Origin: Polytrichum commune
Taxonomy: Eukaryota > Streptophyta > Polytrichopsida > Polytrichales > Polytrichaceae
NCBI GenBank assembly: GCA_950295325.1
Contig: OX485804.1
Location: forward strand, 32,054,001-32,118,000
Length of the DNA stretch: 64,000 nucleotides
Reading direction: 5' to 3'
Of the stretch, positions 16,661 to 59,023 are shown piece by piece. The translations under genes were made by a program, and so were the position numbers. The notes under the pieces are model-generated. The model saw nothing but the letters and a program-made list of their open reading frames with translations, was not told where the DNA came from and did not search any database. The stretch's first letter is position 1, and every line of letters starts with the position of its first letter.

Positions 16661-17429
16661 CGCAACAATCTCAACATCACACCGCGAACATCCTACTACC
16701 CTTTCATTAGCAAGTGTCAAGCTAATGTGCATTGTGGCACCATAGGCCCAAAACCTAGTAGATGGAAGCATTGACGTTGCCATGTGAACCTTATGGCGGG
16801 AACCCGGGGTCCCACATAGACTTTGCCTCAAAACGTCATTAATTATTTATTTTGCTGGAGTGCTACTTATGTTGCAACATAAACCTAAACCTAAACCTAT
16901 AGATGTTTGCTAGAAGTCATTACTGAATCTCGCAATGTACCGTTGGGTCTCTCTTGCTCTCAGCTAAGTTTCCCTTTCAATAACTTCATTCAAAAACATG
17001 TTCTCCAAAAAATCATCTAAAAAATGAGCATGATACCCCTAAAAATGACTAACTGCATCATCATTTTTAAAAAATTGATCTGAATGTCCCTGTGCAGCTC
17101 ATGATGTGAGCAGTCAATTGTCGCCTTCGTAGAAAGAATCGGAGTCATATTGACAGTGCTACAAAGTTTATGCGAGAGCCAAGGACCGATGGGACCCTGG
17201 GGTCCCGCCACATGGTTCATGTGTGACCCACCAAGTGCATTTGCATACTAACTTCGAGGTTGTAGAGCGGCTTTTAACACACTGATTTTTTGCACTCATC
17301 ACATGCAGTAGGCGACGGTAATAAATTTTTTTTTAACTTCTTATCATAAGCTTCAACTAACAAGGATAAACTTTATATGACATACTTGGAAATACATCAT
17401 GAATGGCTTCAGCTCTCTAGAGTGAAACC

Positions 17430-17667
17430 ATGATCGGGGGGAACCGGCAGTTAGTTACAAATGAACTGGTTGAGTTTGAGAAATAACCAGTTGAAGTAGT
17501 TCAAGACTGCAGGAATATTACGGTTCATTTAAAAAGAATTTAAAGAAGAATATACCCGAATTTAATGAAGGAAAACCGGAGGATGTCATCAACATGTAAC
17601 CGGTTGGACTTGCAAACACTAGGATCTCAACCGATGAGTATGCCCAAACAATCTCCCCGATCACTAA
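17430..17667 (-). mobile_element. hAT-like MITE family A, complete copy
   Basis: The element, about 238 bp, is flanked by AGTGAAACC on both sides (17421-17429 and 17668-17676), consistent with an 8-bp hAT target duplication plus one chance base. Ends read CATGATCGGGGGGAA and, in reverse, TAGTGATCGGGGAGA. Internal family words are GAACTGGTTGAGTTTGAG, AATATACC and AACATGTAACCGGTTGGACT. Confidence 0.8.
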
Positions 17668-18004: not shown

Positions 18005-18574
18005 CAATGTCCGGGCATAGTTGGTCAAAACCCTAGTGTTTCCAAGTCCGACTTAATTGTGATCTTTCGGGTGTTTCTAAATTTAGACAATGTTTCATTA
18101 AACTCTTCTTAAAATAATCAGTAATCCTCCTTGAAGTTGTGAACTTCAACTGGTTATTTCTCAAACTCGGCTACACTAAATATGGTATTTTAGCGTCACA
18201 TAGTATTTGATGCCACTATGGTAACTATTCAGATGACACTTCGTATGAATAAGTGAACAAATATTGTCATGGATGATGGATGAGATCATCCATTGGCCCC
18301 AACCCTTGCCTTCTCTTGTCAGCAAATTGTGACGAAATATTGTGATGGATGAAAAATCACTTTGGTAAGTGACACTAATTGCAACGTTGTAAACCATAAT
18401 CCTCCCATAAATTCACCAAGCAATGACAAGTAATGCTGGGTTAAATTTAGTGTTGGCGACACTATGTTGCGGTTTACAATTAATCATTGAGCAAGACAAT
18501 TAGAATTGGTGAAACTACATATCATGTTTAGTGTAGTTCATCTCGAACTAGCGGTTGGTTCTCCCCGTTCATTG
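18005..18574 (+). mobile_element. hAT-like MITE family A, degraded and interrupted
   Basis: The left part, 18005-18171, begins CAATGTCCGGGCATAG and contains TTGGTCAAAACCCTAG and GGTTATTTCTCAAACTCGG. The right part resumes at about 18536 with TTCATC..AACTAGCGGTT and ends CTCCCCGTTCATTG at 18574. The family B element in the middle is a later insertion. Confidence 0.6.
18174..18533. mobile_element. Family B TIR element inserted in family A
   Basis: Ends CACTAAATATGGTA and, in reverse, CACTAAACATGATAT, each flanked by TA (18172-18173 and 18534-18535). A TA duplication would suggest a Tc1/mariner (Stowaway-like) element, but a CACTA-type origin with an unclear duplication cannot be excluded. The 360-bp interior matches 53276-53648 in inverted orientation (GCTGACAAGAGAAGGCAAG, CATCCATGACA). 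No coding capacity. Confidence 0.65.
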
Positions 18575-21585: not shown

Positions 21586-21945
21586 GCAATAACCGGTCGA
21601 AAATGAAGACTTCAAGAAAATCACTTGTCATTCTAGACAAGTCTAAGGAATATACCTTGAATTAATGAAGAAAAACCCAAAAGATGACCGGTTTTTGAAA
21701 CTTTCGAACACTCGTGCGATTTTGACCAAGAACATCCCCAACAGTGGTCGGGGAGATTGTTTGGGCATACTAATCGGTTGAGATCCTAGAACCGGTTACG
21801 TGTTGATGACATCCTCCGGTTTTCCTTTATTAAATTGGGGTATATTCTTCTATAAATTCCTCTAAAATGATCAGTAATTTCCCTGCCGTCTTGAACTACT
21901 TCAACCAGTTATTTCTTTCTCAAACTCAACCGGTTCTCCCCCGAG
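21586..21945. mobile_element. Two abutting family A hAT-like MITE copies, head to head
   Basis: 21586-21740 is a truncated reverse-orientation copy (AATAACCGGTCGAAAATGA, AATATACCTTGAATTAATGA). 21742-21945 is a forward copy starting CAGTGGTCGGGGAG, with GGTTACGTGTTGATGACATC, GGTATATTCTTCTATA and CAAACTCAACCGGTTCTCC. The two are separated by a base or two. Confidence 0.6.
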
Positions 21946-23535: not shown

Positions 23536-23929
23536 GAGCATCCTCAGTCGGTCTAGGTAAAGCTCACTGCAAACCAAAACCTATCTTTTGACTGACCTAA
23601 AATTAGAAACTGAAATTACCATCATTAGAATCACACCTAAATAAACGTGAGATATTTCTCAAGAAAAAAGAATTGTAAAAATTTGACGTAGGTGAAATCC
23701 CTCATTGAAAACACCACATTTTCAAAATTTAGAGGGAGTGCACCAAATCTTGCTTAAAAATGGAAAGATCCTCCCACACTCCCTCCAAATTTTTGACATT
23801 TAGAGGGAGTGTGGGAGGATCTTTCCATTTTTAAGCAAGATTTGGTGCACTCCCTCTAAATTTTGAGCATTTTAAGCAAGATAGGTCTTGGTTTGCAGTG
23901 AGCTTTACCTAGACCGACTGAGGATGCTC
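23536..23929. mobile_element. Harbinger/Tourist-like MITE containing a near-perfect internal hairpin
   Basis: Termini GAGCATCCTCAGTCGGTCTA and its exact reverse complement are flanked by TTA on both sides (23533-23535 and 23930-23932). The 'TTA GAGCATC' end is typical of plant Tourist/Harbinger MITEs. Inside, 23723-23785 and 23803-23865 pair perfectly over 63 bp and continue with few mismatches into a loop of about 7 bases. The outer arms also pair over more than 50 bp (GGTAAAGCTCACTGCAAACC). Confidence 0.9.
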
Positions 23930-33103: not shown

Positions 33104-34124
33104 GGGCCACTTCTCACACACATGAGACTGAGAGCCCGTGACCATTTTAACTTCAAGCGCTCTCATTGGTGGAGAAGGCAGAGCCAGTCCAAGTTCGCTT
33201 CGCACTACGTACGAGGGACCAATGGAGTACATGAATGCAAGATGGATGTAAAGTCCACATGGACTCCCACATGGCATCAAATGGATCATGTTTCACGGTC
33301 ACTTGGGCTACTTTCAAAATCCGGGAGACCATGGCACTCCGAACGCTCACCACCATCGATTCATTCTCTTTCATCATGTGTGAGGACCCACATGAATATT
33401 TCACTAACACGGCTCATGGCTCATGTGTGAAGTGGCCTGCCCTAATCCGCACTTGGCTTGGTCGCATATGACTTCACGCTACACTTGAGGGCCCGTGACC
33501 ACACTACAACATGATGGTGGAGGTGTGTTGGGACGGCCTTCAGACACGTTTCTTTTGGGCTCTCACAATTTCATGGTCACAGCTCATGGCTCATGTGTGA
33601 AGTGGCCTGCCCTAACCCGCACTTGGCTTGGTCGCATATGACTTCACGCTACACTTGAGGGCCCGTGACCACACTACAACATGATATTGGAGGTGTGTTG
33701 GGACGGCCTTCGGACACGTTTCTTTTGGGCTCTCACAATTTCACGGTCATAGCTCATGGCTCATGTGTGAAGTGGCCTGCCCTAACCCGCACTTGGCTTG
33801 GTCGCATATGACTTCACGCTACACTTGAGGGCCCGTGACCACACTACAACATGATGGTGGAGGTGTGTTGGGACGGCCTTCGGACACGTTTCTTTTGGGC
33901 TCTCACAATTTCACGGTCACGGCTCCTCGGCTCAAGTGTGAAGTGGCCTGCCCTAACCCGCACTTGGCTTGGTCACATATGACTTCACGCTACGCTTGAG
34001 GGCCCGTGACCACACTATAACATGATGGTGGAGGTGTGTTGGGACGGCCTTCGGACACGTTTCTTTTGGGCTCTCACAATTACACGGTCACGGCTCCTCG
34101 GTTCAAGTGTGAAGTGGCCTGCCC
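33104..34124. mobile_element. Harbinger-like MITE (family E) expanded by an internal tandem array
   Basis: The left end GGGCCACTTCTCACACACAT is preceded by TAA. The right end candidate GAAGTGGCCTGCCC (34111-34124) is followed by TAA. A compact relative at 55521-56030 has the same ends with TTA duplications. Here the right part is amplified: the junction AGTGGCCTGC recurs at 33431, 33601, 33771, 33942 and 34113. Confidence 0.7.
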
Positions 34125-34145
34125 TAACCTGCACTTGGCTTAGTC
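33431..34145. repeat. 170-171 bp tandem array (about four units)
   Basis: Spacings between junction copies are 170, 170, 171 and 171 bp. Each unit contains the MITE right end (GTGTGAAGTGGCC), the target TAA, a short CCCGCACTTGGCTTGGTC segment, and the internal run ACTTGAGGGCCCGTGACCAC to TTCTTTTGGGCTCTCACAAT. Units differ by only a few bases, so amplification is fairly recent. Confidence 0.9.
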
Positions 34146-34319
34146 ATGTCGAGAGACTCCAATGACGACGCTCATACATAGGCTTGGCCAAATCTGCAAG
34201 GAAATCATACTTATAAATTTGATGTAATCTTTCTGTCAGGCTCTTTAACTCCAAAGGGCCTCTCCGGTCTAATAAAGCTTAGCCCTATATCTGCCTTAGG
34301 GTTAGGGCCCACTAGGTGC

Positions 34320-34840: not shown

Positions 34841-35092
34841 TCAATGCCCGGGAAGTTTTTGGGCATATAGCTAGAGTCCGTCAAGATCCTTGTGATTCTA
34901 AATCCAACCGGTTACATGTCGACATCTTTCGGTTTTGCGCCTCCATTCATTTGAGGTATATTCTTCTATAGATTCTTCTACATGATCGGTAATTCTTCCT
35001 CAAGTCTTCAGTTTTGACCAGTTGTTATTTTTCAAACTCAACCTCTTCATTTGTGATTAAGTGTCAGTTTTTCCCCGGACAGTGGTAGAGGC
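34841..35092 (+). mobile_element. hAT-like MITE family A copy
   Basis: It starts CAATGCCCGGGAAGTTTTTG and ends TTTCCCCGGACAGTG. Flanks GTAGCGCT and GTAGAGGC agree at 5 of 8 positions, a decayed duplication. Internal words are CAACCGGTTACATGTCGACA and GAGGTATATTCTTCTATAGA. Confidence 0.75.
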
Positions 35093-39480: not shown

Positions 39481-40122
39481 GGGACGAACTTTCCATGCAC
39501 GCGTTCAACCCCCTGCTGCCACGGGTTGGATATTATCCGTCCGATGAGATGGGGGATCCAGCGGTCCCGCGGATCCTAGGGTGGTGGAGACCACGTCTGT
39601 GATAATGATCCCTGTAGGCAGGGCAGAAAGAAGGAGGTGGGGGACTTAACTTAACCCGCGGGTTAAGTAACCGACCCAAGTGGTGGAATGCTACTTGATG
39701 CGGTAAAAACTACCCATGCCGTGGTCACATGGTAACAGGGAAAGTAACTCGAGGGGGGGGTTAAGGTGTAACCGCGGTAACTTTCCGGGCAGAGACGGTC
39801 TCCTCCCTCATAAGAACCCGACGCTCCTTCCATCTGCACGCAAGAGCGCCTGGGGTTTCACAGGGTCGATGAATTGGAGCAATACGATATCGCTGTTTTC
39901 CCGATTTCGACATTTGATGCCGTGCCGTCTGTCGCCGTTTCCCTGCTGTAGCTGTACCGCGTGCTAACAAGCGACCCGTGGCCACATTTGGTGCGCTGAG
40001 GCGAAAGAAACGCTGGCGGGGGTTTGTTTTTTGGTGAGCGAAGTTTTGGTGTCGAATCGTGTTTGGGAAGGGGAAGAGATCGGCTTCTTTATGTGTCACA
40101 GGTGGTTACAAGTGATACAACC
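39480..40122 (+). promoter_or_regulatory. ERD15-like gene promoter and leader
   Basis: A GC-rich upstream block. At 39649-39668 lies a perfect 20-bp palindrome, ACTTAACCCGCGGGTTAAGT. Repeated GGTAAC/GTAACC words follow at 39730-39785. An ATG at 39869 opens a 32-codon uORF ending TAA 39965-39967, if transcription begins upstream. TGTGTCACAG just before 40101 could be the acceptor of a leader intron. No clear TATA box was seen. Confidence 0.45.
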
Positions 40123-41159
40123 ATGGCCATGAAAAATACCACACCTTTGGTGTCGACGTTGAATCCCAATGCGCCGTTGTTTGTTCCCGCGGCTTTCCGT
40201 GCAGTCGAAGATTTCTCTCCTGAATGGTGGAACCTAGTACAGACATCCCCCGCCTTCCGAGACCAGTGGTTGCGAGAGAAGTTCCCCGTGTCGGAGGAAC
40301 AAGATATCTTTGCGGAGGACTTGGAGGAGCTTGCGGACCTTGACGAGTTTCTGGAGTACCAGGAGCAGCTCCAAGAAATGGAAGCCGTGCAAGAATCGTT
40401 GTACTTCGATGTTGACGATGGTCAGTTGTACATCCCATGCCCCTTGCATTCGCAACGTTCTTCATCGCTTCCTCTTCTCGTACAGTGCTCTGTTTAATGC
40501 GGCTAGTTTACTATACTGCTGCCCTTCTTTATCGGTTTAGAATACACTCGTGTTATGTTTTTTGACATTGATAATTCCAGGGGAAGGGTGGTCGTCTTTG
40601 CTAAGAGGATGGTGCCTCGTAGGCTGCCATTGTATATATGTGTATGTAATTAGGGAATTAAGAGGTTGTTCGGTATTGTCGATGCATTCGCATTGGTCTT
40701 CACTTCCTCTGTTTTGATGAATATGAGTGTTGTTCTACTATTACCTCTTCTCCTCTTAACAATTCTTTGTTAAAGATGGCTTGTATACTTCTTTCCTGCT
40801 GCTCTTCTTTGTCCGCGCTTTTTTATGTGTTCGTGGACATTTACATTCCAGGAGGAAGCCTCGTAGGTGGCCGTTGAATAGATGCTTATGCAAACTAGAG
40901 GAAAGAGCTCCGGTTATGTAACTATCCTACAGAGTTCCCTGTTTTTGACGTATTTCGGTTTGTTTTTGCAGAGTGCTACATGGAAGACGAATCGAACCTT
41001 GTGAATATAAATAACTGCAGAGACTTGAAGTCGCCTAAGCAGCAAGTGCCGCAGTGGTGCAAGCCTTTGAAGCACCACGACAAGATACCGAACAAGGTTG
41101 GTGGTATCCCCAAGAAGGGAGCCGCGTATCGAATTCAGCAGCCGCGCCATGTAATGTAG
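40123..41159 (+). CDS. ERD15: ERD15-like PAM2-motif protein, two exons
   Basis: Exons 40123-40420 and 40972-41159 (donor GTCAGT, acceptor TTTTGCAG; the split codon gives Glu) encode 161 aa. Residues 11-25 are a PAM2 motif, [15 protein letters not shown], which in this family binds the MLLE domain of poly(A)-binding protein. It is followed by the conserved EDFSPEWW block (29-36) and [10 protein letters not shown]. Residues about 60-90 are strongly acidic ([19 protein letters not shown]). The second exon is basic and ends IQQPRHVM, carrying the family's QPR signature near the C-terminus. ERD15/CID1-type proteins are small, hydrophilic and linked to dehydration, ABA and stress responses; the role here is inferred. 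Two in-frame Mets (40123, 40129) could start; the first was used. Confidence 0.9.
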
Positions 41160-43700
41160 ATGTCCGCTTCGAATGTGCAAATAGATCGATCTTTCATGTT
41201 GTACAGTTGCAGGATGATGATGTAGTCTCGATGTAGTGCCATGTGTACATTGTGAGGTCTACAGAAGAACAGATGAAGATGATGTGTAGCTGACGATTCT
41301 GGTAGGCATTGGTGTACAAATTGTACTGTTGCCCTTAAGCGAGCGTTGGCATTAGGCTGGAAACGCTCCGATGTTGTGGCATGAAATTTGACAGAAAATA
41401 CCAAATACATTTTGACGGTCGTGTAGGGAAGATCATCTTCCCTTCTTCTATAATGATCCAATGCTTGTCCAAGGCCTGCATATACTTAGGTTTGCTTCTT
41501 TACTTCTGTGCGGTTCTTTATGCAAAATAGGTTGCATTGCCAAGAGACGTGCCGACGATCTTGGATATTTTCTCGTTGGACTGCTGTGAAGCTCAGTAAA
41601 GTTGGCTAATACAAAGTTGTACTTGGAAATTTCTCCTCTACTTTCTGTTGACTCTGTTACGTCTGATGTAAGACTTTTGTCCAAAATGTCAGCAAAGTTT
41701 CGACTCGTCTGAAGTTCTGAAGCTTCTTGGGTCTGATTTTGTTTTGAAGGATGATGATCTTTGAAACTGTGGGAAATCTATCGTTTGGTAGACAGGTGTT
41801 TGTTAAGGGAATATATTAGCATAGAATATGTTTGTCATATTCCTACTATATTCCCATAACCCATTTGGTGTTGGGGTAGTTCAAAATTATTTAACCTGAC
41901 AGAAATACTGTGCGGCAGATGATTTATATGTCGGATGTTTTTGAATTCAAAACAAGTTGTACGCTCTCCAGTTTGCAAATATGGTATTCAACTGCACATT
42001 TGGTACTGCCTCTACATAATGCAGATTAAAGTGCAGCCACTGACACATCCACTCTTCAAGTAATCTTTGGGTGGAGAAATCCGCAACCTCCTCTCCACAA
42101 GTAATCTCGGGTAAACAAATGCATATCTCTGCTCATTGTTCCTACAGTGAATTGAAACCTTGAAACTGAAATATGCATATTGGTAAACTTGTTTAGAGCT
42201 TTAAAATGTTTGGTATATGAATATATTGCCCTACGCGATCCATGACATGCTCAAAGTTAGTTGTGGGGTTTGAAGCACATAGTCTAGTTTCATTGATGAT
42301 TTAAAATCTCTGCCATAGCTACAAAAACACAATGTTGGCAAAAGTGTTGATGATAACCATTGTGGTGTATATCAGACACTGAGCCGGATATGGGGCTCTT
42401 GACATGTTCAAAATATCTGGCAGAAGTCTTCAGATATGACCTGATCACATCCCATACAGAGGCCACATGGATTTGAATTTATCCAATGATTTAAATACGA
42501 TTCAGAAGTAGTATGCATATTGGTGATCTAAGTTCATCACACAGGTGAGTTCTCAAAGTTGATACCACTGCAGTACTGTTTCAGTGTTGATTTTTTGGTC
42601 TCTCAACTACGAGGTCTGGTTTACTTAGCCTTACAGTAGTAACTAGAGTAGATAGACCTATTTTTGATGACTTAAGCAACTACGCATAAGTGTACTACAG
42701 GCATCATAGTGGGGTGATTTTTCACATGTTTGGAAAGTTAACATCACAATGTTTGACAATCTTTTTTTTTTTACAATTTATGTCCAAGTTTTGAAATTAC
42801 CATAAATTTTCAAAGGCAAGATTCTCTCCGAACCCATGGGTTTCCTATTTCTGATAATGGGAAAAAAAAACTTTGAGAGTACAATTATAGTAGAGGCACC
42901 TATTCCTGAGCGACAGGCTATCCAAATTCCAATCAAGCTAGAACCGGGAGTGTTTTGGTTTTGAGTGCTGAAGTGAGAAGGAATGGGTGGTTCAGATGAG
43001 CGGTTGTGGCAGATTGTAGACATTGGTTAATACGTTTGGGTCAACTTGTGGATCCAATAATTCACACTAATCTCAATTTAAGGGAATAAAATCTGTAAGA
43101 TTTTGCAATCCTCCTACTGTAATTTCAGTTTTCCTACATGGGAAAAATTTGCACCGCCTTCTACTTCTCGAGACCTGGCGAACACATAATCCCTTTAACG
43201 ATCATCGGTCGTGGGCGCCTCTACTCTAGCGCCCTTTCCAAGGAACCCAAAACCCATGCCCTTTTTTTTAACTTACTTTTCCCGATCACACCGCACGTGA
43301 AGGTTAACTTACAAGTGTGATTCTTCACGACATTTTCCATCACGTTAGCAAATGGCGGCTACATGTGTGGGACTTCACGACTCTGGAAAAGGGTGTCTGT
43401 TCTAGTAGTATTCAAATCGTGGGTAAAAGGATGCCTTTTGTTGTTGTTGTTGTTGTTGTACTTTGGCAATTCTATTCTATTTTACTTGGAGTGCGAAAGT
43501 TTGCACAAGTTCCACCTATATTATCTATCTGGTTCTTGTACCGATGAATTCCATTTACATGTGACATGTGTCAATGGTAAAGTGCATGGCTGCTGTGGCA
43601 TTGGGAACCTAAAAATCCCGTGCATGGAATCTTGGAGGTGAAGTATCAGGTGTGCTTTCACTTGGTTCATGTGCCTCCTAGCGTCAAGGCTCCACAACAG
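41160..43700. other. ERD15-like gene 3' UTR and downstream intergenic DNA
   Basis: The first 300-500 bases are probably 3' UTR. Beyond that no gene is seen. 42709-42730 has a GGGGTGATTTTTCACATG end similar to 54041-54060 and to the hAT-like element at 31350. A TTG trinucleotide run lies at 43437-43459. Confidence 0.5.
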
Positions 43701-43707
43701 ATTGCAA

Positions 43708-43938
43708 CAGTGCCCGGGAAGTTTTTGGGCACAGTTGGTTAAGAATCTGAGTCATTCTATGCATGTTGACATCATCTTCTGGTTTCGCTGCTTCATTCAT
43801 TTGAGGTGGTATATTCTTGTATAGATTCCTCTAAAACGATTGGTAATTCTTCCTGAAGTCTCCAACTTCAACCGATTATTTCTCAAACTCAGCCGGTTAA
43901 ATCATCTGTCACTAACTGCCGGTTCTCCCTGGACATTG
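43708..43938 (+). mobile_element. hAT-like MITE family A, reference copy (231 bp)
   Basis: A perfect 8-bp duplication GATTGCAA flanks it (43700-43707 and 43939-43946). Ends CAGTGCCCGGGAA and, in reverse, CAATGTCCAGGGA. This copy defines the family boundaries used for the others. No coding capacity. Confidence 0.9.
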
Positions 43939-43946
43939 GATTGCAA

Positions 43947-44867
43947 CACAGAGCAACTTCCTCCCTCTCACAGATGATTCCATGAAATGTATAAAGAGGT
44001 GAGGATGAATATTCTGATTTCCTCCTACTGTATCAATACAGCCAGTGGTTGACAGAAGTACCCCAAGGGATCGACACGATTGTTATTAACCTCCACGTGA
44101 TTGATGGCACATCGATTTCAATTTTGTAGTCAACTTGTTTCGGTTACTTGGATCCCATTTGCGTTGGCAATTGTCATCGTTTTTTCAACCACAATCATCG
44201 GTCTATTGTTCAATTTCATCACATGCAACGCATTGGACATTATCAGTTGTGAACTAATCATGGAGAAACTCAACAGTATCACCCGAACTTCTCTTGGTTA
44301 TGCTTTTTGCTTCTCTTTGGCCTCTACCTCTCACAACATTGTCATTCAAAATAAATAATTCGCTCAATAGTTTTTGGCTTCATAGGTTTTTTTGGGGGTT
44401 GGGTGTACAGTTGCATGCTCATCCCACCCACAAAGCCCGATTGCTTTCCAAAGAAAGAGAGAGAGAGAGTCTTTTGACCCTCAATGAAAATGAGGATTAA
44501 TGATAACTATGGACTTTAGTTGTGAGATGAGAATGGTGGCATAGATGTGATAACTTTAATAAGAGAATCTTTTTACATTGAGTATAGGAGTTGCTTTCAA
44601 TCAAAGAAATGATACTAACCAATTACACTGAACTCATCTCGTGCGTATAAAATACTAATCTAATATACAATGAGTGACGTGCACAAATGTCGAGGCTATT
44701 GCCCCACAGTCACCCCCCCCGCCTATGCAAAGGTGAGGTAAAACTGCTGAGACGTATTTATGTTGAAGACATGAATTAACTCATCTATAATAACTAGTTG
44801 CTGGATCTCCTTGTTTAGTCACCCTCATTCATGTATCATACAAGAGTGGGGATAGCCATGGTGTGTT
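43947..44867. other. Intergenic DNA downstream of the P450 relic
   Basis: 44101-44180 resembles 17725-17790 (AATTT.GTGGTCAACTTG, TCGGTTACTTGGATCCCAT). No gene is recognised. Confidence 0.4.
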
Positions 44868-45005
44868 CACCGCTTCCACAGGTGCGGCCAATGCGCAAGT
44901 GAGCCCAAACACGTTGGACATGTCCATGTCCTCGGGGCGCATGTGGTTGGGTAGTGACCAATGGAAAGTGTACCAAGGCTCACAAGCGTGAATTCCGCCT
45001 CACGG

Positions 45006-45421
45006 GGAGGTCACTCCACTGTCAAGTTGAACACCACGTGTGAACAAAGTTTGCTACCCCTATATTACAGGCCGTAGATAATTTAAAATTTTAATGATAT
45101 TCTTTCTACATATACATAACCATTGATAGTATCTTCTGTATATATTTTTTGAAATTTTGAGCCATCTTCACTATTGTAGTAATTTTTTTAGTGCAATTTT
45201 GTGTCATTCTAGTTAGAAACGGTATATTTCATTAGAAAAACAAATCATCAAATTTGGTTACCATTTTTTTACTATGTAATAGGTACCATGTATATCTACT
45301 CATGAAAAAAAAAATATGATAAAAATTTGACCCATTTTGATGATGCTTTATGTAAAAAGTAGGAATTTTACATGTAAAGTGTTCGCACGTGGTTGTTCAA
45401 CTTTACAATGGAGTGACCTCC
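45006..45421. mobile_element. TIR element interrupting the P450 3' exon
   Basis: Ends GGAGGTCACTCCACTGTCAA and, in reverse, GGAGGTCACTCCATTGTAAA, continuing to CCACGTG.GAACA (about 42 bp of inverted repeat). It separates 'EAKHE' from 'WSLPNHM' of the P450 relic. The interior is AT-rich and non-coding. The duplication was not resolved, so the superfamily is open. Confidence 0.75.
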
Positions 45422-48400
45422 TCGTGCTTTGCCTCCAAAATACCCGGGTTCATCACCGGGCATGGCCGCCACCCTGAACCAAAGGGCAACAACTCAAAGG
45501 CTTGTCCCCGGATGTCCCCACGGGAATACTTCCATCAACAATAAACCGGTTGGGGTTGAACATGAGAGGGTCGTTTCAAATGGCCGGGTCCAAGGCAATG
45601 GCCCAAATGTTCACAAACACACATGCCTTCCTGGGGACATTGTACTCCATCACTTTGCACGCTTGGCCGGCCTTGTGGGGCACGAGTATGGAATACAATA
45701 TGCACAGCACTGTCGCCGCCGCAGCTTGGCGGTCCCGGCCGCAGCCTGGCGCTCGCTGCTAGGGACATCGGAAAAGGATAACCTATGCTCTGACGGGCGG
45801 TAACCGGCCATTGCAGGTGAAGCGTATTTGCAAGACCGGCCACTGCACGTCAACATACACGAGCAAGGAGGCGGGAGGGTGGAGGCGCCAAGTTTCCTTC
45901 ACGATTGCACGGTGATATGTGAGCCGGTCCAAGTGAGGCTCGTTGATCTCGTTCGATCACGATGTCGAGTTGCGCTATTTCTTCATTCATGACTGATGGG
46001 TTCCGGGGGAGTTCTGCCATTGCCCACTCCGTACTTACAATTAGGGTGTCTGTTCTTGCAAGAAACGCACTCTGGTGTGCACATGCCAACGCAAACATCA
46101 TTTGGTGGTTATTCCCTACTAACAAACATAAACACTTAGTCTAATAGATGTGACATGAATATCATTAAAGGCCACTTGGTTTGGCAATTTCAGTACGACC
46201 ATTGAGTTTGTGGAGGTATAAACTCGTGTTGGAACGGTATTTATGTATGTCAACGCTTGGTGTAAGCATTGCTACCAAGTAGGGTATCGCAGACCATACC
46301 CAATTGCTGTCAGAGGGGACGTTATCACTGATTCTCTTCGACTTGATGGTTCTGTGATACTTTATTAGAGTAGATTTCCAATCTTTATTCGTACATTTCA
46401 AATTTGTTTAGTTGACAGAGAACCAGTGGTAAAGAACCGCAATTCCCGTAGTATTCAGAGTTGAAAGTAATCCAATACTTTCATATCACAATCCACATTG
46501 ACAGACACTACAAGGATCACCGTAGCGATTGTCACTAGGAGCACAATGCTATCGTGGCACTTGTAGCATTGCCGCTATAGCATTGTCACTAGGAGGTTGA
46601 TCGTTTTAGGTATCATCGTTTTTAATGATCAACAACGCCGATAGAGTTGGAAACCTAAAATCTACCTCCTAGTGGCAAGATCCGAGTGGCAAATGCTGTT
46701 TAATCTTTGCAGCACAAGAAACCACTTTAAAACTTGCGGACATTGACTCCGTTCAAAGACTTTGAGTAACGAAGATTCTTACCATCATCATACCCTTCAC
46801 ATTATTCTCCGTGCTTCGAATGCCATCCTTGGTTTCCATGCGCTCAAGCAGCACATCCACCATGTCCTTCTTGCAGTTGTCGTCTGCACTTCCACACTTT
46901 GTTCCTCTCCCGGTGCTCGGAGAGAATTTCCCCCACAAACTTATCCTGGAGATCCTTCACCTTCCTCATACAGCTCTCATACCCTTGCAAATCGAACGGC
47001 CTCAACACGGGGATGAAGTCTCCCAAATCGAACACGGTGAAGTTCTCCGCCACCAAGTTCTGAGCGCTTTTTGCATCCTCGATCTCGACCGCATCCATTT
47101 TGTTGTCTGTGGACTCCCATCAGCCGCTTGTTCATGACCATCTGCGAAATGATGTTTTGGGCCATGACACTGAGGTGGGTCGTCCATTGGATCTTCGTCC
47201 CCGTGCTCCGAGATATACTTTGCAACGTATCAAACACTTCTTCCTCTCGCAAGTGTCGGGATGCGTCAAGCTGGTGTGCGCCCACAAGCTCTAGCGTGAA
47301 TATCTTCCTCAAGTTCTGCCACTCCGGTGTGTTATTCCCCCAAGCCACTTCTGCAAAAAAAAAAAATCGCAAGTAACCTAACCTCACATGAGAAAATGAT
47401 TTGTAGCTCCCTGAAGATTTGAGATCAAGGTTTATACACATTCATAAAGGTGGTAACAACTGACAATGTTTCTTACATGAGCCCAAGGGAGGGAGGTGAT
47501 GACGATGATGGTGACCATCGATTTGAACCTGACCTTATTATAATTCTGTAACTGTATTGCTATCGGGGTGGCAACTCTCCCCCTTAAAACAGCTGTTTCT
47601 AAATTACTTCGAATGCGCCTAATGCATTGACGACTTGGTAGTTCACAACAAGGAGCAACTTGCTTGTATTACCAGGATTGCTGTTCCTTACTACTGGTCT
47701 TCTTCCACTCTAAGGGTTTCACATTTATCAATGTGGATAGGAAATTCACTTTTGTAGTAGATCATGAAACTATCTCGTGGAACAAAACTAGTGGTAAGGA
47801 ATTGCGATTCTTTGAGGGGTGGGAAGAGTCTATTCAGAGGAACCCATTGATATCATTGGTGTTTGAATCGTAATAGATGATCACTTTCAAGTGTCGTTCT
47901 TAAAGGTTAAATAAAAGCAAAAAAATTAAGACAAGGCGGGTCACTATCTAGATCCCCTATATATCATCTTTGCCTTCTAAGATAATAAATGCAATGTCGT
48001 GATCCGGGGTGGCAATTACTTGTAGCACCCATGCAGGTCAACATCTTTGGAACATAGTTGTAACAACTAAAACATTTCAAGAAGTCCTCTTTTAAAACTG
48101 CTTGCACGTATCATAAGCTCATGTGGACTTGTTCGAAGACTTCGAGGAAACCATGACAAGAGATCATAACCATTTGAGACTTGAGGTGGCGTTCCATGAT
48201 TGCGGAAAAAACTGACTTCCCTAGAGCATACACACCCCCCCTCCCCTGCCTCGCCCTCAATCTAAAACATAGAACTCCATGATTCGAGGGTCTAGAGGAG
48301 ATGGCGCTCAAATGGTTATGTCCGGTAGAACCCCTCGGACCTCCCGGCTCTTGGGGATTACCACCTAGTCCATAATAGCCAACCCTAAAGTAGGTAGCAA

Positions 48401-48771
48401 AAACAACACCCAAAAGGCTCGATTTACTCAAAACAAGCATCCAAATTTTGCTACGAGGGCTTTCAACACAAGAATGTAATTAGAGGACGAACATAACAGG
48501 CAAGAAGGACACATCTGGATGTGGTGAATTCTTTTCCATACCTGCACGGTTGTAAACCATGATACGATTGTGCGCCATTTGGAGTAATTATTGGCATTGT
48601 GGGTTTTGAGAAACTCCTTTGCCATTTTGGAGCTGTTGGACTCATTCACGTAGAGCTGTTGTCCGAAGCGCAGCGACAACAAGGGAGTCACTTCTCCGCC
48701 AGTTTGCGAGGTGTGGGTGTGTCCCGAGAAGATGCAGGTGGCCGATTATGGGAACAGCAGGCGGTGAGGAC

Positions 48772-49672
48772 CACTCTCCAGGGAGAACCGGCGGTTAGTT
48801 GCGGATGAACCAGTTAGAGTTTGAGAAACAAGCGGTTGAAGTTAGAGACTTGAGGAGAATTACCGAGCATTTGAGAGGGAGGAATCTACGGAAGGAGTAT
48901 ACCTCAAGTGAATGAAAGCAAAACTCGAAGGTGTCAACATGTAACCTGCTGGACTTAGAATCACTAGGATCTTGACCGACTATGCCAGGCCTCCTAAAAT
49001 GTGGCATTCTATTTTTTAGATGCCACATTTAGATAATGTGAGGTTTTCTGGACGCCGAAAATATGAAGTTAATGTTTTGTCTGGGAACACTGCGCATATG
49101 TGTCATTGGAGGTGTTCTATGTACTGACACTATTGTCGATGACTACGTGTCTGTGGAGTCGTAGACCCAACCTCATCGTCGTAGAGGGAATCCGGCTCCA
49201 AGCTTCTCATTGATAAGCACGGTCATGCAATGTTCTTCAACACGGAATGGGCTGATCTGAAGGGACGCTTTGAGCATTTGCGAATGTTTTGCGGTGGATT
49301 GGCAAGTGCTTTCGCCAACACAACAAGTGTTGAGTCGGATTTTAGCATTCTAAAATGGGAAGAAGATGACTTTCAACATCAATGAGGAACCTAACGCTAG
49401 AAGGCATCTTGCAGGCCGAGCATTGCCGTGTTGTGATGGGAACTCCTGTTCCGACTTGATCCGATGATGGCGTTGGGGCCCAATAGAACGAGCAACCGAC
49501 ACTTTTACAACTTACGTCACGAAAATTGATTAATTTCGAGGCAATTTGCCACTTTTTATATATTGCCGATTTTGAAAATTTTTGAACGCCGAATTTAAGC
49601 TAAAAACGGTAAAAATGGCGTTTGCCATATCTTAGGAGGCCTGGACTATGCCCAAAAACTTCCCAGGGACTG
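48772..49672 (-). mobile_element. hAT-like MITE family A inserted in the P450 hinge
   Basis: Flanked by GTGAGGAC and GTGAGGGC (48764-48771 and 49673-49680), a 7/8 match. Ends CACTCTCCAGGGA and, in reverse, CAGTCCCTGGGAA. Excising it and one duplication restores the P450 frame across the Pro-rich hinge. Without the second element inside it, it would be 235 bp, matching the 231-bp reference copy. Confidence 0.9.
48986..49643 (+). mobile_element. hAT element with transposase remnant nested in the MITE
   Basis: Flanked by a perfect 8-bp duplication GACTATGC (48978-48985 and 49644-49651). Ends CAGGCCTCCTAAAATGTGGC and, in reverse, CAGGCCTCCTAAGATATGGC. The interior at about 49230-49450 reads SVESDFSILKWEEDDF, then in a shifted frame TSMRNLTLEGILQAE. 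These are hallmarks of the hAT C-terminal dimerisation domain. At 658 bp it is a deletion derivative. Confidence 0.9.
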
Positions 49673-49849
49673 GTGAGGGCGGCAGTCTAGAACAACAGCT
49701 CCTGTTGTAGGCCAAGTCCTCCAAATTCTCTCAAACATTTTCTCCTTCAGAAACAAGCTCATCGGCCAACTTTCAGGACTACAGTCTGACACTATATTTC
49801 TCGACTGGCCTCTCGATAGGAACGTCCTCCAAAGGTGCATGAAATGAAA

Positions 49850-55515: not shown

Positions 55516-55520
55516 CTTTA

Positions 55521-56030
55521 GGGCCACTTCACACATGAGACTGCGAGCCCGTGACCCTTACACTTCAAGCACTCTTATTGGTGGAAAAAAGCGGAGCCGG
55601 TCCAAGTTCACTTCACACTATGCTTGAGGGACCAACGGAGTATATAAGTGAATGCAAGATGGATGTAAAGTCAATATGGATTCCTACATGGCATCGATTG
55701 GATCGTGTTTCATGGTCACTTGGATTGTTTTCGAAAACCACCTCTTGGAGGTAGGCTCAACACAAAACCAACCGGGAGACCATGGCACTCCGAACGTTCA
55801 CAACCGTTGGTTTATTCTATTTTATAATGTGTGAGGACCCGCATGAATAAAAAATTCATTGAAATAGCATTTGGTTAAGGGCCCGGTGACACATGACTTC
55901 ACACTCCACTTGAGGGTCAGTGACCACACTACATGACTTTGGAGGTGTCTTGGGACGGCTTTTGAACACTTTTCTTTTGGGCTCTCACAATTTCATGGTC
56001 ACGGCTCTTGGCTCGTATGTGAAGTGGCCC
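55521..56030. mobile_element. Harbinger-like MITE family E, compact copy
   Basis: Ends GGGCCACTTCACACATGAGA and, in reverse, GGGCCACTTCACATACGAGC, flanked by TTA on both sides (55518-55520 and 56031-56033). The 510-bp interior aligns with 33104-33440 and with one unit of the 170-bp array. Confidence 0.85.
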
Positions 56031-56404: not shown

Positions 56405-57849
56405 TTGTAGGAAGTTTTTGGGGGACATAGAGTCGGTCAAGATCCATGAGATTCTAAATCCAGCCGGGTACATGTTGACATAATCTTCCGGTCTGGCCTT
56501 AATTCATTTGAGGTATATTCTTCTAAAGATTTCTCGAAAATGATCACTAAGGGGCGGTTTACACTATGGACCATGAAGTTGGACCAGGGCTCTACAAGGC
56601 AGCTGATTGGCTCTTGAAGTTGTCCCGCGACAACTTCGGTTTACACTAAGGAAAAAATGGCAGAGGGACCATGGAGGTTGAGGTCCCCAAAATATCAATT
56701 TTAAGGCCTAATAAATGCATTGACATGGTCCAACGGGTTTTGCGGTGAGAGAGGCAAGAGAGGTGGTCTGGTAGGAAAAGGCAAGGGCCCATGTCAGAGA
56801 GATGCCATTCCAAGAATTTTTAAATGAATCTACCTTTTATGTGCCTTAATTATATTATAGCCCATGAGACATACCAGTAGTATCTTGCCTTAAACGGGCT
56901 TACACGTGTTTCATCAAACAACGTGGGACATCTAGAACTCAAGAATTCAAGTGCATATTTGTTTTTTTGGTCTACTAGCTGCAATGTTTGGAATTTGGGG
57001 GCGTGTAGTATACCGTTGGAAAGGTCTTGAAAATACCTTTCCAACGGTATATTACATGCCCCAAAATGTTTAAAAAATACAATTGGAAAACAAAAAACAA
57101 AAATGCGTAGTCGTTTAGTGACTGCAGATCAGGATGGTCAAAAGAAGCGCAATGGGAAATCTTCTAACATTAATTATCAAAGAATTAAAATTTAGTGTTG
57201 AGCAAGGTTGGGTGGTAACAACATTAGATATAATCAAACACTAAATATCCTATTTAGTGTAGTGACAACACAAGGTACATGTCACATGTAAATTACATTG
57301 AACATGTACAAATTGAATCGCTCATTTTTTTGTAAAAATTGTTGTGAGAAGATTTGCAAGCCACATCTTTGACACATTTAACAAGAAGTGAAGACAGTTG
57401 AAGCCCAAGAGATGACAAGAGAATGATCAAACTTTAAGGCGAAAAGAAGAAAAAACTAAGTGACAAGATAAGTGAAGGTATGTGTAGGCAAGTGAAGGCA
57501 AATTGAAGTCAACAAAATGGTCAGACTTCATTTTTTCCCAAAACTGCCCTTTTTGGGCTTATATTAAAAAAATCAGCACATCCACTCTTGTTGCATGGTC
57601 ATTCCTCTTGGTCCACATTCGATTTACACCTAGTGAGGGGCCCAACGGCTTTGTAAATCAATTTTGTAAGAACTCGGACCATGAAATGTAGACCATGAAC
57701 TCGTACCGCGGAATATGCCTTATTCCCCGGTACAAGTTCATGGTCTATGGTGTAAACCGCCCCTAATTCTCCTCAAGTCTCCAACTTTAACCCGGTTATT
57801 TCTCAAACTCAACTGGTTCAATCATCTGTAACTAACCCCGGACAGTTCA
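56405..57849 (+). mobile_element. hAT-like MITE family A, interrupted by a Harbinger-like element
   Basis: The left part (AGGAAGTTTTTGGGGGACAT, GGTATATTCTTCTAAAGA) breaks at 56550 after TGATCACTAA. The right part resumes at 57764 with TAATTCTCCTCAAGTCTCCA and ends near CCCCGGACAGTT. Removing the inserted element and one TAA restores the family A order. Confidence 0.75.
56551..57763. mobile_element. Harbinger-like element, family D copy 2 (TAA duplication)
   Basis: Ends GGGGCGGTTTACACTATGGA and, in reverse, GGGGCGGTTTACACCATAGA (about 35 bp of inverted repeat), flanked by TAA (56548-56550 and 57764-57766). At 1213 bp it is longer than the 8428 copy. It includes a fragment at 57160-57260 similar to 19490-19560 (TTATCAAAGAATTAAAA, GGGTGGTAACAACA), so it may carry another insertion. 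Confidence 0.9.
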
Positions 57850-57943: not shown

Positions 57944-59023
57944 GGGCCGCTTTGCACCTAGAGGTTGGGCCAATTCCCCTTGAGGCCGATTGCATGAAAT
58001 TTCAACCCCTTTTGGGTTGGAGGCTGGCCCAACTACACATTACAATAAGATTATAACGGGGATCAATTTTCCCATATGTAAAGGTCTTAGGGTCAAGAAG
58101 CTAGGCCGATTCAACAAAACTAGCATAATCCAACGGATTTAGCATAATCTAGCACATAGTCGTTCATATTTCCACATAATCCAATGGATATGGTTTAAAA
58201 AATCGTGTTTTATTTAAACAAGGATTTTTATTGAAACTGGACATTGGTCCCAAGGCCAAAAATTGGCCCTCCATTTTGGGTGCACCCAATCCAACGAGCT
58301 CGGGCCGTGTCATACCATGCATTGTTTTGATTTTAAAAAGCATACCACCAAATCGGCCCGGCCACTAGGTGTAAAGGGGTTGGGACCAATTTTAGCCTTT
58401 TGACCAATCATAACTGAGGATTTCAAGCCTCTTACATAACAAATCAGCCCGGCCTCTAGGTGTAAAGGGGTTGGAACCGATTTCAGCGTTTTGACCAATC
58501 ATAACTGAGGATTTCAAGCCTCTTACATAACAAATCGGCCCGGCCTCTAGGTGTAAAGGGGTTGGGACCGATTTCAGCCTTTTGACCAATCATAACTGAG
58601 GATTTCAAGCCTCTTACATAACAAATCAGCCTGGCCTCTAGGTGTAAAGGGGTTGGAACCGATTTCAGCCTTTTGACCAATCATAACTGAGGATTTCAAG
58701 CCTCTTACATAACAAATCGGCCCGGCCTCTAGGTGTAAATTAAGGGGTTGGGACCGATTTCAGCCTTTTGACCAATCATAACTAAGGATTTCAAGCCTCT
58801 TACATAACAAATCAGCCCGGCCTCTAGGTGTAAAGGGGTTGGGACCGATTTTAGCCTTTTGACCAATCATAAGTGAGGATTTCAAGCCTCTTACATAACA
58901 AATCAGCCTGGTCTCTAGGTGTAAAGGGGTTGGGACCGATTTCAGCCTTTTGACCAATCATAAGTGAGGATTTCAAGCCTCTTACATAACAAATTGGCCC
59001 GGCCTCTAGGTGTGAAGCGGCCC
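57944..59023. mobile_element. Harbinger-like MITE with 3' tandem expansion
   Basis: Ends GGGCCGCTTTGCACCTAGAG and, in reverse, GGGCCGCTTCACACCTAGAG. Flanks are TGA on the left (57941-57943) and TAA on the right (59024-59026). The right half is a tandem array of the subterminal sequence. Confidence 0.8.
58350..59010. repeat. 91-bp tandem array (about seven units), CCAAT-bearing
   Basis: TGACCAATCATA recurs at 58401, 58492, 58583, 58674, 58769, 58860 and 58951: spacing 91 bp with one 95-bp unit. Every unit carries a CCAAT pentamer and a copy of the terminal-like CGGCCTCTAGGTGTAAAG. Divergence is low. Confidence 0.95.

Follow-up and report, generated by a model that had tools for sequence, protein, structure and literature searches.

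A plant-type cytochrome P450 locus in the 64-kb window (the whole stretch of Polytrichum commune DNA analysed here, 64,000 nucleotides) carries two DNA transposons, one inserted into the other. We are highly confident that this nest arose when two unrelated, non-autonomous elements of hAT type inserted by cut-and-paste, one after the other, into a P450 that is now a pseudogene. The three layers (P450, MITE and second element) have the coordinates that the first-pass annotation gave them, and both pairs of target-site duplications are as it described. The arrangement looks like the usual pattern of plant genomes, that is, an ordinary nested insertion of DNA transposons.

The outer MITE occupies 48772..49672 on the plus strand and measures 235 bp when the inner insertion and one copy of the inner duplication are subtracted. 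Its target-site duplication consists of GTGAGGAC on the left (48764..48771) and GTGAGGGC on the right (49673..49680), both read on the plus strand and both found where they had been claimed; the two copies differ at one of eight positions. Within the MITE, at 48986..49643 on the plus strand, lies a non-autonomous hAT-type element of 658 bp with the terminal repeat CAGGCCTCCTAAAATGTGGCA. This inner element is bounded on the plus strand by two identical copies of GACTATGC (48978..48985 and 49644..49651), an 8-mer that occurs nowhere else on that strand of the window. An 8-bp duplication is a trait of hAT elements, and CAGG is a usual kind of hAT end. The inner element shows two of the traits expected of the superfamily, an exact 8-bp target-site duplication and short terminal inverted repeats that match at 19 of 21 positions, and its placement inside the MITE between identical duplications stands as annotated. 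When intervals of the two element lengths were drawn at random from the window, exact flanking 8-mers were found in 12 of 200,000 and flanks with at most one mismatch in 125 of 200,000. A chance duplication is therefore unlikely for both elements, whose ends were set by other evidence.

The terminal repeats of the outer MITE are weak, matching at 9 of 14 positions without gaps, and its hAT assignment thus derives mainly from the 8-bp duplications seen at three of six copies. The MITE is probably of hAT type on this basis. The label "hAT-like" used in the first-pass annotation holds with respect to the duplications, and the terminal repeats (9/14) lend it slight support.

The MITE belongs to a family with at least 7 partial or full copies in the 64-kb window. 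A second full-length copy of 231 bp, which lacks the inner insertion, lies on the minus strand at 43708..43938 and is flanked by an exact 8-bp duplication, GATTGCAA, at 43700 and 43939. A third copy of about 239 bp is found on the plus strand at 17429..17667 with the exact 8-bp duplication AGTGAAAC, and a fourth, more diverged copy on the minus strand at 34845..35083. In addition to these, diverged copies are located near 21790, 56410 and 57764, and the regions around 18014-18168 and 31596 give shorter matches. Duplications were scored for the copies at 48772, 43708, 17429, 34845, 21790 and 56410, and three of these six have one: 48772 with a single mismatch, 43708 and 17429 exactly. No duplication with one mismatch or fewer was present in the flanks scanned at 34845 and 21790. 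At 56410 the sole 8-mer pair (one mismatch) was rejected as a duplication, since it spans 156 bp and begins within the aligned copy. The ungapped match between terminal repeats, counted over 14 positions, is 9 for the 48772 copy, 10 for 43708 and 6 for 17429. The four longest copies in the window are separated by K2P distances of 0.21 to 0.36, which indicates that the family is old.

Removal of the inner element yields the 235-bp MITE that had been predicted, and this restored sequence aligns with the 43708-43938 copy over nearly its full length and across the inner insertion site. In BLASTN, its positions 6-235 align with positions 6-231 of that copy at 75% identity (181 identical columns of 242, with 28 gap columns). 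On the minus strand the 43708-43938 copy reads uninterrupted through AACTGTGCCCAAAAAC where the 48772 copy holds the inner element, and the alignment across the insertion site, for the MITE with and without the inner element, pairs AACTGTGCCC with GACTATGCCC. The 43708-43938 copy is an empty site, inside the window itself, for the inner insertion.

The window contains further repeats and a candidate gene. Tandem arrays are present at 58349-59020, with units of about 91 bp and 93.7% identity at an offset of one unit, and at 33398-34146, with units of about 170 bp that have diverged relatives in 55520-56029. A stretch of 145 nt at 23722-23866 is 95% identical to its own reverse complement. The open reading frame at 40024-40497 scores 21.3 bits for the PAM2 motif (Pfam PF07145, cut-off 20) and might be an ERD15-like plant gene.

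Stops occur in all six frames of the inner element, which has no open reading frame of 100 or more amino acids. Two plus-strand frames hold the coding-like fragments ASAFANTTSVESDFSILKWEEDD and LTLEGILQAEH, which we take to be similar to the C-terminus (dimerisation domain) of hAT transposases. The putative remnant had no hAT match in Pfam; against solved structures it gave two chance-level matches only (E=1.4), to an unrelated enzyme and to no transposase, and against viral contigs 14 pattern matches, none of which was confirmed. A second full copy of the inner element was not found in the window, where its self-matches comprise its own terminal repeats, one match of 20 nt and short matches at chance level. 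The element probably arose from a hAT transposon by deletion.

The host locus extends on the minus strand over approximately 44840..49690, from the proline hinge near 49690 to the C-terminus near 44840. Its P450 motifs are spread over three frames, in the order LPPSP (frame 2), FGQQ (0), MVYNRAG (2), NLVAENF (0), KDMVDV (1), LTYHRA (2) and ELLPFGSG (1). Individual pieces match the Pfam p450 profile, some of them under the curated cut-off; the piece with the heme loop is above it (E=1.9e-13, 50.5 bits). A likely intron lies between 48541 and 47351 (minus strand), where GT/AG borders fit. Beyond two presumed introns and the insertions, with motifs assigned by eye, there are six frame switches and an in-frame stop (DPAI*NDP), so that removal of introns and both elements leaves no open reading frame. 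Given the frame switches and the stop, what had been annotated as a P450 "gene" is, on its present sequence, a degenerate plant-type pseudogene.

Removal of the outer element restores LPPSPPAVPIIGHLHLLG in the proline hinge, and the minus strand then reads LPPSPPAVPIIGHLHLLGTHPHLANWR. Against Pfam, the joined piece gives a p450 match that starts at profile position 1, with E=0.003 and 16.8 bits (curated cut-off 22.8), whereas the two halves taken separately give no p450 match up to E=1; the right half has no Pfam match at all and the left half a sub-threshold hit to the unrelated RNA_pol_N (E=0.017). A read-through of the whole locus, assembled from pieces picked by eye, aligns with isoflavone synthase 8e83 at E=1.5e-42, with a single residue inserted at the junction, and with ferruginol synthase 5ylw at 6.7e-40, gap-free at the junction. 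The in-silico excision thus gives a product that can be aligned through the junction with plant P450 structures, and the claim that the MITE splits the proline hinge is borne out by the continuity of this read-through. As in 8e83 and 5ylw, regions corresponding to the proline hinge, I-helix, K-helix and heme loop can be aligned; unlike these plant P450s, the host locus is degenerate, with frame switches and insertions.

The weak terminal repeats of the outer element, together with introns with GT/AG borders that probably occur elsewhere in the P450, could be taken to mean that the outer 8-mers and the MITE ends arose by chance within a P450 intron or unrelated spacer. We regard this as very improbable: the 43708-43938 copy aligns nearly end to end and has a perfect duplication of its own, flanks with one mismatch or fewer surround just 125 of 200,000 random intervals, and the excised proline hinge is continuous and aligns to plant P450s. 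A different question is whether the P450 still worked when the outer MITE broke it, so that the nest would record the cause of the gene's death. The insertion does lie in coding sequence of the N-terminal hinge, and excision leaves an intact reading frame at the junction. Against this, the six frame switches, the in-frame stop and the two other probable insertions at the locus could each have preceded the MITE, and the MITE family is old: the 48772 copy differs from the other three of the four longest copies by 0.21-0.34 substitutions per site. On balance, we consider it rather unlikely that the MITE killed the gene.

Under the preferred reading of two successive insertions, a MITE of about 235 bp would have entered a plant-type P450 within the codons of its proline hinge, duplicating 8 bp. 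Later, the 658-bp element would have entered near the right end of the MITE, duplicating 8 bp of MITE sequence. Both may have been mobilised by hAT transposases encoded elsewhere. In the nested transposable elements of plant genomes, a younger element lies within an older one, which gives a relative order. Here the inner element is the later of the two, because it sits inside the MITE and duplicates MITE sequence. The first-pass annotation had instead drawn the order from the imperfect outer and perfect inner duplications, but one mismatch in eight against none in eight is uninformative; dating by duplication mismatches was rejected, as such a comparison lacks power.

The layering of the nest is the same as in nested plant transposable elements, with no essential difference. 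Like plant hAT-type MITEs, the outer element is short and non-autonomous, has several diverged copies and is flanked by an 8-bp duplication; unlike them, it has short and imperfect terminal repeats, and no active or autonomous partner was identified. In the parts of a review that we consulted, nDart1, dTok and nDaiZ are classed as hAT-type plant MITEs (PMC12595863), and the duplications described are A-T-rich and of 2-9 bp, in contrast to the G+C-rich outer duplication found here. Among the papers listed by a literature search, the titles and abstract openings contained nothing on this nest.

Two further insertions probably interrupt coding parts of the P450. One of 169 bp lies in the K-helix region (45689..45857), between the 8-bp flanks CACGAGTA and CACGAGCA, which differ by one base; terminal repeats were not seen there on inspection by eye. 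The other, MITE-like and about 426 bp long, lies in the 3' part (45001..45426); its terminal inverted repeats are long, aligning over 47 columns with 4 mismatches and 1 gap, and its flanks agree at 6 of 8 positions. The chances appear evenly balanced that the pseudogene has been a repeated landing site, with a series of four insertions made up of the nested pair and these two probable short insertions with duplication-like flanks.

The two non-autonomous families are candidates that are possibly new for this host. The nest illustrates transposon stratigraphy cleanly and leaves general understanding unchanged. If the series of four is true, the order of four insertions in one dead gene could be derived using relatives.
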